From: a candidate division KSB1 bacterium
Lineage (GTDB): Bacteria > Electryoneota > RPQS01
Assembly: GCA_016214895.1 (NCBI GenBank)
Contig: JACRMR010000008.1
Span: 186,001-250,000, forward strand
Length of the DNA: 64,000 bases
Direction: 5' to 3'
In this document: positions 12,028-24,686 of the stretch, in pieces
Layout of the letters: each line of letters begins with the position of its first letter
How positions within the stretch are numbered: position 1 is the stretch's first letter
Notes under the pieces: generated by a model
What the model was told of the DNA's origin: nothing
The model's input: only the letters and a program-made list of their open reading frames with translations
Databases searched by the model: none
Position numbers and translations under genes: made by a program

Positions 12028-12203
12028 CCGCCGAGCGGGGTGCCCTCGCCCCGCCGGAATCGGAGCCTCAGCACTCCGTGCGGCGGCACGTCTCTTGAGA
12101 CTTGACGTGCCCCGCTCTTCCCCCCGCCGAGCCGTGCGTCCCCGCGCGGCCGGAATCGGGATCTTCTTCGCCGAGCGGGGTGCCCTCACCCCGCCGGAAT
12201 CTC
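12028..12203. repeat. Mosaic of dispersed palindromic repeats
   Basis: This intergenic stretch between mpl and tRNA-Sec is built of repeat modules that recur elsewhere. 12030-12060 and 12170-12202 carry a GCGGGG/CCCCGC hairpin whose reverse complement reappears at 44566-44609. 12081-12116 is a REP-like palindrome with stem GGCACGTC/GACGTGCC. 12129-12158 matches the second hairpin of the 96-bp array beyond pckG. The rest, up to about 12290, is low-complexity pyrimidine-rich sequence with no gene. Confidence 0.85.
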
Positions 12204-12296: not shown

Positions 12297-12391
12297 GGGG
12301 ACGGATGGGGCACTGGTGGCCCCCGCGGTCTTCAAAACCGTTTGCGTCCGCCTCGCGGCGGAGGGCTGGGTTCGATTCCCAGACGTTCCCG
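12297..12391 (+). tRNA. selC: tRNA-Sec (anticodon TCA)
   Basis: The cloverleaf can be folded by hand. The acceptor arm pairs 12297-12303 with 12384-12390 (one G-U). The D arm is GC-rich. The anticodon stem GCGGT/ACCGT encloses loop CTTCAAA with anticodon TCA. A long variable arm pairs TCCGCC with GGCGGA, and the T arm CTGGG/CCCAG encloses TTCGATT. A 95-nt class II tRNA with a UCA anticodon is diagnostic of selenocysteine tRNA. CCA is not encoded. No selenoprotein or selA/B/D gene is seen in the window. Confidence 0.93.
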
Positions 12392-14255: not shown

Positions 14256-14712
14256 TTCCGGCCGTGCGTCCTCGCACGGCCGGAATCGGAGCGTCAGCAC
14301 TCCCTGCGGCGGCACGTCGCTTGAGACTTGACGTGCCCCGCTCTTCCCCCCGCCGTGCCCTGCGTCCCCGCGCGGCCGGAATCGGAGCGTCAGCATTCCC
14401 TGCGGCGGCACGTCTCTTGAGACTTGACGTGCCCCGCTCTTCCCCCCGCCGAGCCGTGCGTCCTCGCGCGGCCGGAATCGGAGAGTCAGCACTCCCTGCG
14501 GCGGCACGTCTCTTGAGACTTGACGTGCCCTGCTCTTCCTCCCCCCGAGCCGTGCGTCCTCGCGCGGCCGGAATCGGAGAGTCAACACTCCCTGCGGCGG
14601 CACGTCTCTTGAGACTTGACGTGCCCCGCTCTTTCCCCCGCCGAGCCGTGCGTCCTCGCGCGGCCGGAATCGGAGAGTCACCCCGAGCCGGGTCTCCAGA
14701 CCCCGCCGGAAT
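14256..14712. repeat. Tandem array of 96-bp double-hairpin units
   Basis: The REP-like core (stem GGCACGTC/GACGTGCC) begins at 14307, 14403, 14499 and 14595, a constant 96-bp period. Each unit also carries a second palindrome, best preserved near 14262-14285 as CGGCCGTGCG/CGCACGGCCG around TCCT. A partial unit precedes and another follows, ending in a different hairpin (GGGTCT/AGACCC, about 14688-14701). Units differ by a few substitutions. Because 96 is a multiple of three, the array is open in several frames on both strands; these frames are not genes. There are no spacers, so it is not a CRISPR array. Confidence 0.92.
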
Positions 14713-20332: not shown

Positions 20333-22336
20333 CTACCTCGGAGAACGGGCATTCCGAGCCTCCCATTCAGCGTATGACGATTTGAACTTCTCCTCAGTCG
20401 GGAGCAGCTTTATTGCATTGTCATAAGCGGCTCTGATATCTCTGGCTTGTCCACGAACTCGCTGAAGTGTAACAGCCAAATCAAGATAGTACCATGCGAT
20501 TTGCTGAGGATCGACGCCAAGCTGGGTGGAGCGCCGGAGAAGCTCGATTGCCTCTAGTCTTAGCCGCTTGATTGTATGCCAATTAGTGTTGCGCGCATGA
20601 TACATCTCATTCGCAATTGCAATCTTGACCTTGGCATAATCGTGCAGGAATTCAGAGTTTGTATCGAAGGAAGCATACACCTGAGCCATCAATACATGAG
20701 CTTTCTGATTCTCACGTACGCGTTTGAAGGCAATCGCAACATCGTACGGCGCATTTGCGTACTCTGTCTCCGGCAATTCGTCGATGACCTGCCGCGCCTT
20801 CAAATTTAGATTAGAACCCAAGTAGATTCTAAACATTCTTAGATAAGGTTGTTCTCCCTCGGATCGCAGTGGCTGCGCTCGGAATTCGTTGAACACTCGT
20901 TCGGCTGCTGGGAGATCGTCGCGCTCGGCATAAAACTGAATCAGCTGGGCCGCAACTGCGCCAGAGCTCGGCTGCCCTTTGAACACGTCTTCCAGTCTCC
21001 TTATGGCAGGAGCCCGCTCGCCGATCGACCACATGTAGGCGGCCTCACTTACCGCCTGTAAAACAATGTACTTAGGGTGAGCTGGCAGAATCACGCGAAA
21101 GTACGTTCGTTCAACATCGAAATCAAAGACTGGACGACTTGAACCATGATCCGCCATCACGCGCCGCATCTTGGGAATGCCAGTTCCACGCATTTCAGCG
21201 AGTTGAAGTTCTTTCAACAATTCTCCAATTCGCCGGTTGCGGGCTGGAACTGGAGGAACGGGTCGCGCTGATTGCAAATGCTCCATCGTTATTCCGGGCA
21301 CAGGACCGGGATAACTTATGATTTCAAGTCTGTCTGGATAAACATGAATCTTATTGGGTTCGCTTGGTTGGTCATATCCACGGTGATAATATGCGTTGAC
21401 AACTGCCTCCTCTAGAGCCTCGTAAGGATACCCGACTGTCCGTTCTGCAAGTGCTCTTCCCGGAATCTTCCTCACATGAGCGTTCGTCAAATTCTCTAAA
21501 TAGCTCAATATCTCCGTGATCTGATAGCTGATTGGACCCGTGAATAGCTTCTCTTCAAAGAGATTGCCCCCGGCGTCGTCGCGATACATCGCGAGTTCCA
21601 ATTTGCAGCCAGGAAAGTGCCGCTCTGGTTTCTCGGCGAAAAAGAGTAATCCGATATTTCGCGGAACAAGTTTCCCGCCGACATCCTTTGTGACTCGAAT
21701 CGACTCGTAGAGGGCTGTATCGGGAATCGGTGGTGTTGAGTTCAACAAGTCGCTTCCAATATCTTGCAGAAATCTCTTAACCAGCAGCGGCGAAATATCC
21801 GTAAGTGTTGAGGCGTGGTTTGGCCTATCGTCAAATGGAATCTTCGCTGTCTGTTCGCGGAGCTGAGCTTCTTGTGCCGTTGTCGCCTTGACCGTTTCTG
21901 AGTTTACTCGAATTGGCAAACAGTTCTCACTGAAATTCCGTGGGTCAGGACCGATGTGTGGCCTGTTGTCGCTAGCGGGTGCCCAGACTACAAGCAAGTG
22001 CTTGCTATCATAGACAAGCGGTACAATGATCGGTTGAAATTCTGTTTGAACTCGAGTCTTACACAGACGACGGATTTCTTGTTGAGTCGCTTCCAATGAC
22101 TCTGCTGGAAGACCAGCTGGCGGAAGAATCGGAAGTCCATCTTTAGTATCTATTCCAATAATAACGTATCCGCCGTTTACATTCTGAAAATCATTCGCAA
22201 ATGCAACAATTGTAGCGATAATATGCGGCTTAGTGGCCACTGAAAAGCCCCTCTTGTACTCAATTCGATTGCTTTCGACGGTACGGGCCTGGACCAGATC
22301 GTCAATGTTGATTGGTAAGAGATTCATGAGATTCAC
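20333..22336 (-). CDS. AlbA_2 (Schlafen-type) / RecG-like ATPase-fold protein with C-terminal TPR region
   Basis: A 667-residue protein. Residues about 15-125 match the AlbA_2 putative DNA-binding domain (ESNRIEYKRG, then GGYVIIGIDTKDG). Residues about 225-420 match the HATPase_c_4 module of RecG-like/Schlafen-type regulators (EEAVVNAYYHRGY and MRGTGIPKM). From about 425 to the end is helical and TPR-like. G+C is visibly lower (near half) than in flanking genes, suggesting transfer. Such proteins are known as regulators and in defence islands; the role here is unproven. It neighbours RAYT and HEPN/MNT genes. There is no obvious partner gene in an operon with it. Confidence 0.75.
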   Translation of the reverse strand: MNLMNLLPINIDDLVQARTVESNRIEYKRGFSVATKPHIIATIVAFANDFQNVNGGYVIIGIDTKDGLPILPPAGLPAESLEATQQEIRRLCKTRVQTEFQPIIVPLVYDSKHLLVVWAPASDNRPHIGPDPRNFSENCLPIRVNSETVKATTAQEAQLREQTAKIPFDDRPNHASTLTDISPLLVKRFLQDIGSDLLNSTPPIPDTALYESIRVTKDVGGKLVPRNIGLLFFAEKPERHFPGCKLELAMYRDDAGGNLFEEKLFTGPISYQITEILSYLENLTNAHVRKIPGRALAERTVGYPYEALEEAVVNAYYHRGYDQPSEPNKIHVYPDRLEIISYPGPVPGITMEHLQSARPVPPVPARNRRIGELLKELQLAEMRGTGIPKMRRVMADHGSSRPVFDFDVERTYFRVILPAHPKYIVLQAVSEAAYMWSIGERAPAIRRLEDVFKGQPSSGAVAAQLIQFYAERDDLPAAERVFNEFRAQPLRSEGEQPYLRMFRIYLGSNLNLKARQVIDELPETEYANAPYDVAIAFKRVRENQKAHVLMAQVYASFDTNSEFLHDYAKVKIAIANEMYHARNTNWHTIKRLRLEAIELLRRSTQLGVDPQQIAWYYLDLAVTLQRVRGQARDIRAAYDNAIKLLPTEEKFKSSYAEWEARNARSPR

Positions 22337-22351
22337 TCACTTGTTTATTTC

Positions 22352-22671
22352 GCGGCGGCATGTGTCGGCACCAGTGGTGTCTAATTATAAGTTGAGCAGG
22401 GATCTGCGGTTAGTGTTGGTGGGCCTTCGTCCAGATGCAAGAGGTTTTATCGCGGCGGCATGGTGTCGGCACATGCCCCGCTCGGGATAAGTCCTGCAGT
22501 GACACGCGTCATTCGCATCGGCGTGTCCCGCTTCATGAATTCACATCCGGGACCGGTGACGGTCCCGGTATTTCTACTGCGGCGGCATGTCTCTTGAGCA
22601 TTGACATGCCCCGCTCGGGATAACTTTCGCGGCAACAGGCGTCGTTCGCATTGACATGCCCCGCTCGGGAC
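22352..22671 (+). repeat. Cluster of REP-like palindromes upstream of the RAYT gene's 3' side
   Basis: Degenerate copy at 22352-22380, copy at 22452-22486, full copy at 22580-22620 (stem GGCATGTC/GACATGCC, tail CCCGCTCGGGA), and a 3' half copy at 22649-22671. Between them are other hairpins: GACACGC/GCGTGTC (22501-22527) and CCGGGACC/GGTCCCGG (22547-22568). The cores share one orientation on the + strand. The region between 22337 and 22690 holds no gene. Confidence 0.88.
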
Positions 22672-22690
22672 TCCCCGCGCGTGTCGCAAG

Positions 22691-23224
22691 TCAGCTCAGC
22701 TTCGGCCCAATCAAATCCGTCGCGACCGTCACAATCCCCTTCCCAATCTCCCAGTAGTCCCGCGCGCTCGACCAGAGGTAGCGTTCGGGTGCTTCGACAA
22801 ATTCGCGCTTCACCGGATTCGCGTGAAGGTAATCCAACATCGTGTGCGCAACTGCGTTGTTTATCACCGCCACATCATCGAAGCGTCGTCGCCAACGCAG
22901 TTCTCCGAGCGGGGCATGTCCGGCCTCAAGAGACATGCCGCCGCGAATCAGATTCCAGTCTCGCGCTGTGGACACCTTGAAGGCGCGTACCAATTCCGAG
23001 ATCTGATCGCCGTCCTCGGTTTGCATCAGCAGCGCGTGCAGATGATCCGGCATCAGCACGTAGCCCGCGCATTGGATTCCGAGCCGGCTGCGGCAGCGCT
23101 CGAACTCAAGCAGTATCGCGCGACAGATCGGCTCGCGCACAAACCAGCTCCCCCGCTCTTCCGTCACCGCGGTGATGAAATGCACACCACCCGCTACCGA
23201 ATTCGTGCGATGTCGTCGCAACAT
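22691..23224 (-). CDS. REP-associated tyrosine transposase (RAYT, Y1/IS200-like)
   Basis: A 177-residue single-strand DNA transposase of the Y1 (Transposase_17) family. It shows HFITAVTEERG near the N-terminus, the HUH metal motif in VLMPDHLHALLM, and the catalytic tyrosine in DYLHANPVKREFV. RAYTs bind and cut REP palindromes, and matching REP copies flank this gene on both sides at 22580-22671 and 23251-23294. A complete REP palindrome lies inside the coding sequence (22903-22944), adding RGGMSLEAGHAPLGE between the helical part and the conserved WRRRFDD. The frame is intact, so the protein is probably active. It is a single gene without terminal repeats of its own. Confidence 0.92.
   Translation of the reverse strand: MLRRHRTNSVAGGVHFITAVTEERGSWFVREPICRAILLEFERCRSRLGIQCAGYVLMPDHLHALLMQTEDGDQISELVRAFKVSTARDWNLIRGGMSLEAGHAPLGELRWRRRFDDVAVINNAVAHTMLDYLHANPVKREFVEAPERYLWSSARDYWEIGKGIVTVATDLIGPKLS
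22903..22944 (-). repeat. REP-like palindrome within the RAYT coding sequence
   Basis: Read along the gene, this is CGGCGGCATGTC, an 11-base loop, then GACATGCC-type arm and CCCGCTCGG, which is the same core as the flanking REPs but in the opposite orientation on the chromosome. The 8-bp stem is perfect. It is translated in frame. Confidence 0.85.
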
Positions 23225-23250
23225 GACTTAGATCTCTGGATCGGATTCGT

Positions 23251-23294
23251 CCGCGGCGGCATGTCTCTTGAGCATTGACATGCCCCGCTCGGGA
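23251..23294 (+). repeat. REP-like palindrome
   Basis: Full-length copy with stem GGCATGTC/GACATGCC and tail CCCGCTCGGGA, between the RAYT start (23224) and the HEPN gene. It is in the same orientation as the copies at 22580-22671, so the RAYT gene is bracketed by direct repeats. Confidence 0.88.
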
Positions 23295-23313: not shown

Positions 23314-23697
23314 TTACGTCAACCTCGCCCTGACGAATTCACAAATTGTCTCCGCCATCTTGAGTGCTCGCTTGGCATTGGTCTGGCTTGGCCAAAACAT
23401 GTCGTCATACCGCATTTCGACGGCGAACGGACTCAGCTCCTGTCCGATTTCCTTGATTTCCGAGAACGCGCGATCCCGCGACTCACACAACGTGATCAGC
23501 TTCTCAAGGTTGTGAATGAACGGAAACTCAATCTCGAACCGAGCGAGGTAAGCTTTCAGGAACTTCTCCGCCGCCTGCTGCGCATGAAAACACGCGGAAT
23601 CGAGGGAGACTCCGGCCTCTATGAGCGTGCGAGCAGCGGCGAGATCGCTTTCCCCTTTCGCGATCATTCCCGCCGCCAATTCACGCGGGCCGTTCAT
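23314..23697 (-). CDS. HEPN-domain protein
   Basis: A 127-residue all-helical protein of the HEPN family (PF05168 type): ACFHAQQAAEKFLKAYL followed by FIHNLEKLITLC. The start is taken as the ATG at 23697 (MNGPRELAAGM), which overlaps the end of the upstream nucleotidyltransferase gene by 17 bases, the standard MNT-HEPN layout. The R-x4-6-H ribonuclease motif of HepT-type toxins is not visible, so whether it acts as an RNase toxin is uncertain. The pair may be a toxin-antitoxin or a minimal nucleotidyltransferase system. Confidence 0.8.
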   Translation of the reverse strand: MNGPRELAAGMIAKGESDLAAARTLIEAGVSLDSACFHAQQAAEKFLKAYLARFEIEFPFIHNLEKLITLCESRDRAFSEIKEIGQELSPFAVEMRYDDMFWPSQTNAKRALKMAETICEFVRARLT

Positions 23698-24007
23698 ACA
23701 ATACCTTTCCCTCTCGAACGGCCGTGGTAATGAACGCCTGCCGTACATCCTTCCATGCTTCGATTTCCGCCGGGGTATAAACCAGCAAGTCGGTCTGGAC
23801 CATGATGTCGCTCAGGGTCCCATAGATCGGAGCGGCGCGTTCCCAGCGCGGCTTGTCCGAGTCAGCCACAACCAGCAAGTCTAAATCACTGTGGGCATGC
23901 TCGGTACCGCGCGCGCGACTTCCGAACAAGATCACTTTGTGCGGATGAATTGCCTTGACGATTCGATCAACGATTTCGCTGATGACTACCTGGTTCAGAC
24001 TTTGCAT
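23681..24007 (-). CDS. Minimal nucleotidyltransferase (MNT)
   Basis: A 108-residue NTase-fold protein partnered with the downstream HEPN gene. The catalytic signature is complete: LFGSRARGTEHAHSDLDLLV (GSxARG then DxD), with a third acidic residue in VQTDLLVY. In characterised MntA-HepT pairs the NTase AMPylates and silences the HEPN toxin; here only the family assignment is supported. It is transcribed first, and its stop lies inside the HEPN start region. It sits in the accessory island among REP elements. Confidence 0.85.
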   Translation of the reverse strand: MQSLNQVVISEIVDRIVKAIHPHKVILFGSRARGTEHAHSDLDLLVVADSDKPRWERAAPIYGTLSDIMVQTDLLVYTPAEIEAWKDVRQAFITTAVREGKVLYERPA

Positions 24008-24645: not shown

Positions 24646-24686
24646 CCGGCGGCATGTCTCTTGAGCATTGACCTGCCCCGCTCGGA
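24646..24686 (+). repeat. REP-like palindrome upstream of the DUF4256 gene
   Basis: Core CGGCGGCATGTC, TCTTGAGCATT loop, GACCTGCC arm (one mismatch in the stem) and tail CCCGCTCGG. The AT-rich tract that follows (24690-24740) is the one also found inside leuS. Confidence 0.85.

Follow-up and report, generated by a model that had tools for sequence, protein, structure and literature searches.

Can the gene of a REP-associated tyrosine transposase (RAYT) hold, within its own reading frame, a copy of its own REP, and, if so, where did the copy come from and is it of use to the gene? The question is raised by a RAYT gene found in a 64,000-nucleotide stretch of DNA from a candidate division KSB1 bacterium (contig JACRMR010000008.1), hereafter the window, in which an earlier note had reported a complete REP element inside the coding sequence.

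The RAYT gene and its product

The encoded protein belongs to the REP-associated tyrosine transposase family, scoring 99.9 bits with the NCBIfam model NF047646 (cut-off 80); with Y1_Tnp it scores 22.9 bits, just below the cut-off of 23. The HUH motif is D60-H-L-H63 and the single catalytic tyrosine is Y132, in YLHANP; both motifs are invariant, or nearly so, across 27 aligned sequences. The Y----Q motif of class 3 TnpA_Y1 is absent from the protein, which has YLHANP instead, with no Q. The AlphaFold model reaches a mean pLDDT of 90.9, and its top PDB match, sharing the same fold, is 4ER8, E. coli TnpA_REP with a REP hairpin (E 5e-9).

Directly upstream of the RAYT gene, genes for a HEPN protein and an MNT-type nucleotidyltransferase are found at 23314-24007 (minus strand), in the same layout as in HEPN/MNT toxin-antitoxin pairs; a nucleotidyltransferase-like gene occupies the same relative place beside L112, a related RAYT gene described below. 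Downstream, the REP cluster is adjoined by a gene (20333-22336, minus strand) whose 667-aa product contains a Schlafen AlbA_2 and a RecG C-terminal-like domain and matches TPR marginally.

A complete REP in the reading frame

The REP reported by the earlier note is indeed present in the gene, complete and in frame, and is of the same type as the REPs flanking the gene (Table 1). Read along the gene it has the sequence CGCGGCGGCATGTCTCTTGAGGCCGGACATGCCCCGCTCGGAG; the interval originally given, 22944-22903, marks the right site but starts one base late, the first codon being a CGC that begins at 22945. The perfect 8-bp stem already described is formed by GGCATGTC and GACATGCC, and lengthens to 12 bp when GCGG/CCGC and one bulged C are included. 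Across 10 REP copies of several kinds, 99.2% of the cells of the 12-bp stem are paired, two stem positions vary on both sides, and no slid structure comes near.

Table 1. Coordinates of the RAYT gene, of its internal REP and of the surrounding REP copies (positions in the window)
Feature	Position	Strand	Remarks
RAYT gene	22691..23224	-	177 aa
Internal in-frame REP	22903..22945	-	encodes RGGMSLEAGHAPLG(E)
Internal REP, stem arms	22944-22941 + 22939-22932; 22920-22909
Internal REP, loop	22931-22921
Internal REP, CCGA foot	22905-22908		plus-strand reading
REP just upstream of RAYT start	23252..23294	+	41 nt, 90% complementary to internal copy; inverted to it
REP downstream of RAYT	22579..22620	+	40 nt, 90% complementary to internal copy; inverted to it
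Degenerate REP downstream, 3' half intact	22626..22670	+	72% complementary to internal copy over 43 nt
Variant REP downstream (GGCGGCATGGTGTCGGCACATGCCCCGCTCGG)	22445..22487	+
Partial REP, 5' half	22349..22366	+	94% complementary to internal copy over 18 nt
REP 1.4 kb upstream of RAYT, one stem pair broken	24646..24686	+

The internal palindrome is not a chance occurrence, since it finds inverted matches of 40-41 nt, at 90%, in the flanking REPs (22579-22618 and 23252-23292). The two full flanking copies have the same orientation, the internal copy alone being inverted to them. Exact matches to the 14-nt end CATGCCCCGCTCGG number five in the window, all of them inside 22472-23292; when up to 2 mismatches are allowed there are 7 matches, versus 1.45 expected from shuffled sequences.

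The foot of the element is CCGA, directly 5' of the stem on the foot-first strand, as in flanking REPs of L112 and of a paralogue of the gene in this genome (L006). It is not the GT[AG]G foot of the GTAG class, and neither end of the REP carries the tag of the CGTC class; a CnGA foot has been described for class 3 TnpA_Y1 (PMC6006769). The stems differ according to the RAYT: ATGTC here, AGGTG at L006, ACTTG at L007 and ATGTG at L112.

Stem and foot of the internal copy are those of the flanking copies, and the differences are confined to the loop. A standard REP placed in this frame would read RGGMSLEH*HAPLG, with a TGA stop in the loop; in the internal copy CATT is replaced by GCCG, by which the stop is lost and the frame is open. 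Four independent changes would all fall in the 11-nt loop with a chance of 0.003; the four may however represent one event. Loops also vary among intergenic REP copies, and no other genomic copy listed has the loop sequence of the internal one. The standard loop is present in three genomic copies, two of which flank the RAYT gene.

REPs across the genome

A general REP pattern produced 131 matches in the genome and none when reversed as a control. The element is, as is usual for REPs, a short palindrome, present in many copies and mostly intergenic. The census is based on pattern searches, with the first 100 match places listed among the 131, and the setting was analyzed at a sample of 29 REP sites and 52 more. 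All but one of these sites are intergenic, upstream of likely starts, as for dnaN (L030), a dehydrogenase E2 gene (L010) and an Mrr endonuclease (L181), or within seemingly spurious ORFs. When ten long REP-containing ORFs were compared with Pfam, domains were found in the Mrr ORF only, from residue 168, the REP being near residue 27. A match in an efflux-pump-like ORF (L178) was discarded as a chance match with no proper stem. Among the sites analyzed, no other palindromic copy lies inside a recognised protein domain, and the RAYT is the sole convincing gene with a REP in its body within the sites sampled.

Other REP families were noticed along the way. At 14261-14680, downstream of a seeming PEP carboxykinase gene, a 96-bp unit that holds a related REP of the ACGTC kind is repeated in tandem (4.4 copies); a further ACGTC-type copy, at 12080, is near a selenocysteine tRNA (12297-12390, plus strand; Rfam RF01852, 56.4 bits). 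A second RAYT of the genome lies amid a long array (L007, 970-3190) of about 20 REPs with a GGCACTTG stem, mostly spaced by 42-47 bp, on both sides of the gene.

Position of the insert in the protein

In the AlphaFold model, helix alphaC (residues 74-94) is followed by coil and then by strand beta4 (116-120), and the REP-encoded peptide is located in the coil between them. Its pLDDT is about 71-73, versus 94-98 on either side; the corresponding insert of L112 has values of 51-60. The loop between alphaC and beta4 is accordingly predicted to be flexible.

In E. coli TnpA_REP, residues of the beta4 region, including Q95 and R104, touch the GTAG foot (PMC8266576; PMC6006769). In the alignment, W94 of that protein corresponds to W111 here, and Q95 and R104 to R112 and I121. 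As judged from this correspondence, the insert adjoins, in sequence, the putative foot-recognition region around beta4. The presence of R112 and I121 in place of Q95 and R104 is in keeping with a foot other than GTAG.

Comparison with related RAYTs

By an alignment-based scan of genome contigs, 56 relatives were collected; scanning the contigs with the single protein as the query had returned none. Among the 27 RAYTs aligned, the linker between K83 and W111 has 17 residues in 23 relatives and 18 residues in one further relative; in the gene studied here it has 27, in L006 24 and in L112 51. The gain of residues that the earlier note had expected from an insertion is thus clean and at one point, with a net difference of 10 residues from the 17-18-residue linker of the 24 relatives. 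It had also named, as an observation that would speak against insertion, the same peptide in a homologue free of REPs; no such homologue is present among the relatives aligned. The RAYT under study, L112 and L006 form one clade, with support 99/95; the tree is compatible with a sister relationship of the two REP-bearing genes as well as with its absence (AU p 0.5).

L112 belongs to a Calditrichota-labelled draft genome, and the gene is identical to L048 of genome G005. Its insert is made up of the REP of its own lineage (stem GCATGTG/CACATGC), in two full copies plus part of a third, at the same site as here, in reverse orientation and encoding a different peptide (GAGHVKNEDTCRRE...). In G005, the first of the internal copies most resembles the REPs next to that same gene, with one loop base different. 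Inverted REP pairs about 55-60 bp apart, resembling REPIN dimers, were also seen repeatedly on G005 contigs C174, C207, C267, C314, C405 and C430; they are of two kinds, with GGCATGTG and GGCACGTG stems. In the 24-residue linker of L006, a search for a decayed REP detected none. In a set of 94 distinct RAYT ORFs, drawn from several phyla, a palindrome of the flanking type is found in the catalytic body of just two, the gene studied here and L112. L140, L143 and L054 were considered as further cases and rejected, as the repeat precedes the likely start or sits in the C-terminal tail.

A second case with the same architecture and a different REP bears on the chance that the gene is a product of assembly, two fragments having been misjoined at the 42-nt repeat. 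The genome is a draft of 26 contigs and the element occurs several times at this locus; the frame, however, is kept, the internal loop matches none of the other genomic copies listed, and a joined gene is made unlikely by the fact that L112 and L006 are the nearest relatives of either half of the protein. Taken with the second genome, these observations render an artefact highly improbable.

Origin of the internal copy

The reading that we favour, and consider probable, is that the RAYT's own REP was copied in frame into the alphaC-beta4 loop, most likely from the REPs at the locus, and was tolerated there. The source would most likely have been one of the REPs crowded around the gene, with copying as the presumed mechanism. 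Local copying is the most economical explanation because REPs are dense at the locus, the internal copy of G005 is closest to its neighbours and the loop is, in this clade, tolerant of changes in length. The insert would have persisted because the loop accepts extra residues and the copy, lacking the standard stop, reads open; its effect on the protein would be near neutral. Since the inserts here and in L112 have opposite orientations and different stems, they were presumably independent insertions, and local copying of a cognate REP possibly happened twice.

All three members of the clade have a longer linker, and L006 has no REP in it, which makes it conceivable that a single early insertion later decayed, was inverted or underwent concerted change. 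The REP would then have entered the gene of the clade ancestor and have been kept, being repeatedly converted by local REPs to the REP type of each lineage. An old insertion would also agree with the fact that, out of 28 genes, the two REP-bearing ones alone are preceded on the same strand, at a distance of about 0.7 kb, by an MNT-type nucleotidyltransferase motif. The two nucleotidyltransferase genes, however, match over just 47 residues (38%), and a gene order shared with L112 was judged weak on this account; opposite orientation and different stems also argue against common descent of the inserts, as does the lack of any detectable remnant in L006. A single old insertion is therefore regarded as rather unlikely, and separate local copying is preferred.

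Possible regulatory role

Autoregulation through the internal REP and self-targeting, both suggested by the earlier note, are conceivable, the former in view of the predicted mRNA fold. In such a model the REP would be a kept regulatory element, bound by the RAYT in the gene or in the mRNA, or lowering expression by pairing with the upstream REP. Pairing is suggested by the predicted mRNA fold, in which upstream and internal REPs are joined (-268.3 kcal/mol, z -3.9), and in both cases the nearest upstream REP is inverted to an internal copy; this arrangement in both, however, has a chance of 1 in 4. What the two cases have in common is the palindrome, not the peptide, and here the four differences all spare stem and foot, at the low probability given above for independent changes; against this, they may be a single event, and loops vary in the intergenic copies too. 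Moreover, 26 of the 28 RAYTs of the group are without an internal REP. A kept regulatory element appears unlikely on this evidence. In its more extended form, the internal REP would be a long-kept cis element of the RAYT lineage, two genera carrying the REP of their own lineage at a common site; the enzyme would read it at the DNA or mRNA level, possibly when paired to the upstream REP, so as to limit its own expression or copying. This we regard as quite unlikely.

Relation to known systems

Quentin et al. (2018) described REPs inserted in frame in tnpA_REP genes, mainly of subclass 2.4, corresponding to RAYT group 4 (PMC6006769). There, as here, the REP lies within a tnpA_REP gene without breaking the frame. 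Subclass 2.4, however, has a variable insertion domain between beta3 and alphaC, REPs with GT[AG]G feet and the motif NH[IFV]H (PMC6006769), whereas the present RAYT has its insert between alphaC and beta4, a CCGA foot and the motif DHLH. Insertions in the same alphaC-beta4 loop, near the REP-recognition region, are known from subclasses 2.2 (10 aa) and 2.6 (21 aa), but are described as subclass insertion domains and not as REPs (PMC6006769).

Di Nocera et al. (2013) reported in-frame intragenic REPs of the GTAG and CGTC classes from several hosts, including O. terrae, R. conorii and the recB gene of Xanthomonas, where two species hold different REPs at about the same site (PMC3733652). They are palindromes in frame inside genes, as here, with different feet (PMC3733652); the main text of that paper names no RAYT gene among the hosts. 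Rickettsia palindromic elements are also short palindromes in frame within protein genes, but they are not tied to a resident RAYT and end in CGTC (PMC3733652).

As in-frame REPs in tnpA_REP and other genes had been described before, the present finding is a modest extension of a known phenomenon; what differs is the RAYT lineage, the loop and the REP foot. In-frame REPs inside RAYT genes now extend to a KSB1/Calditrichota-type RAYT lineage with CCGA-footed REPs, and the insert found here adjoins beta4, the region of foot recognition in E. coli TnpA_REP. Two related genes, whose inserts share a site but differ in REP and have opposite orientations, offer a natural pair for two questions: do RAYTs act on the genes that encode them, and do REPs spread for the most part in the vicinity of their RAYT?
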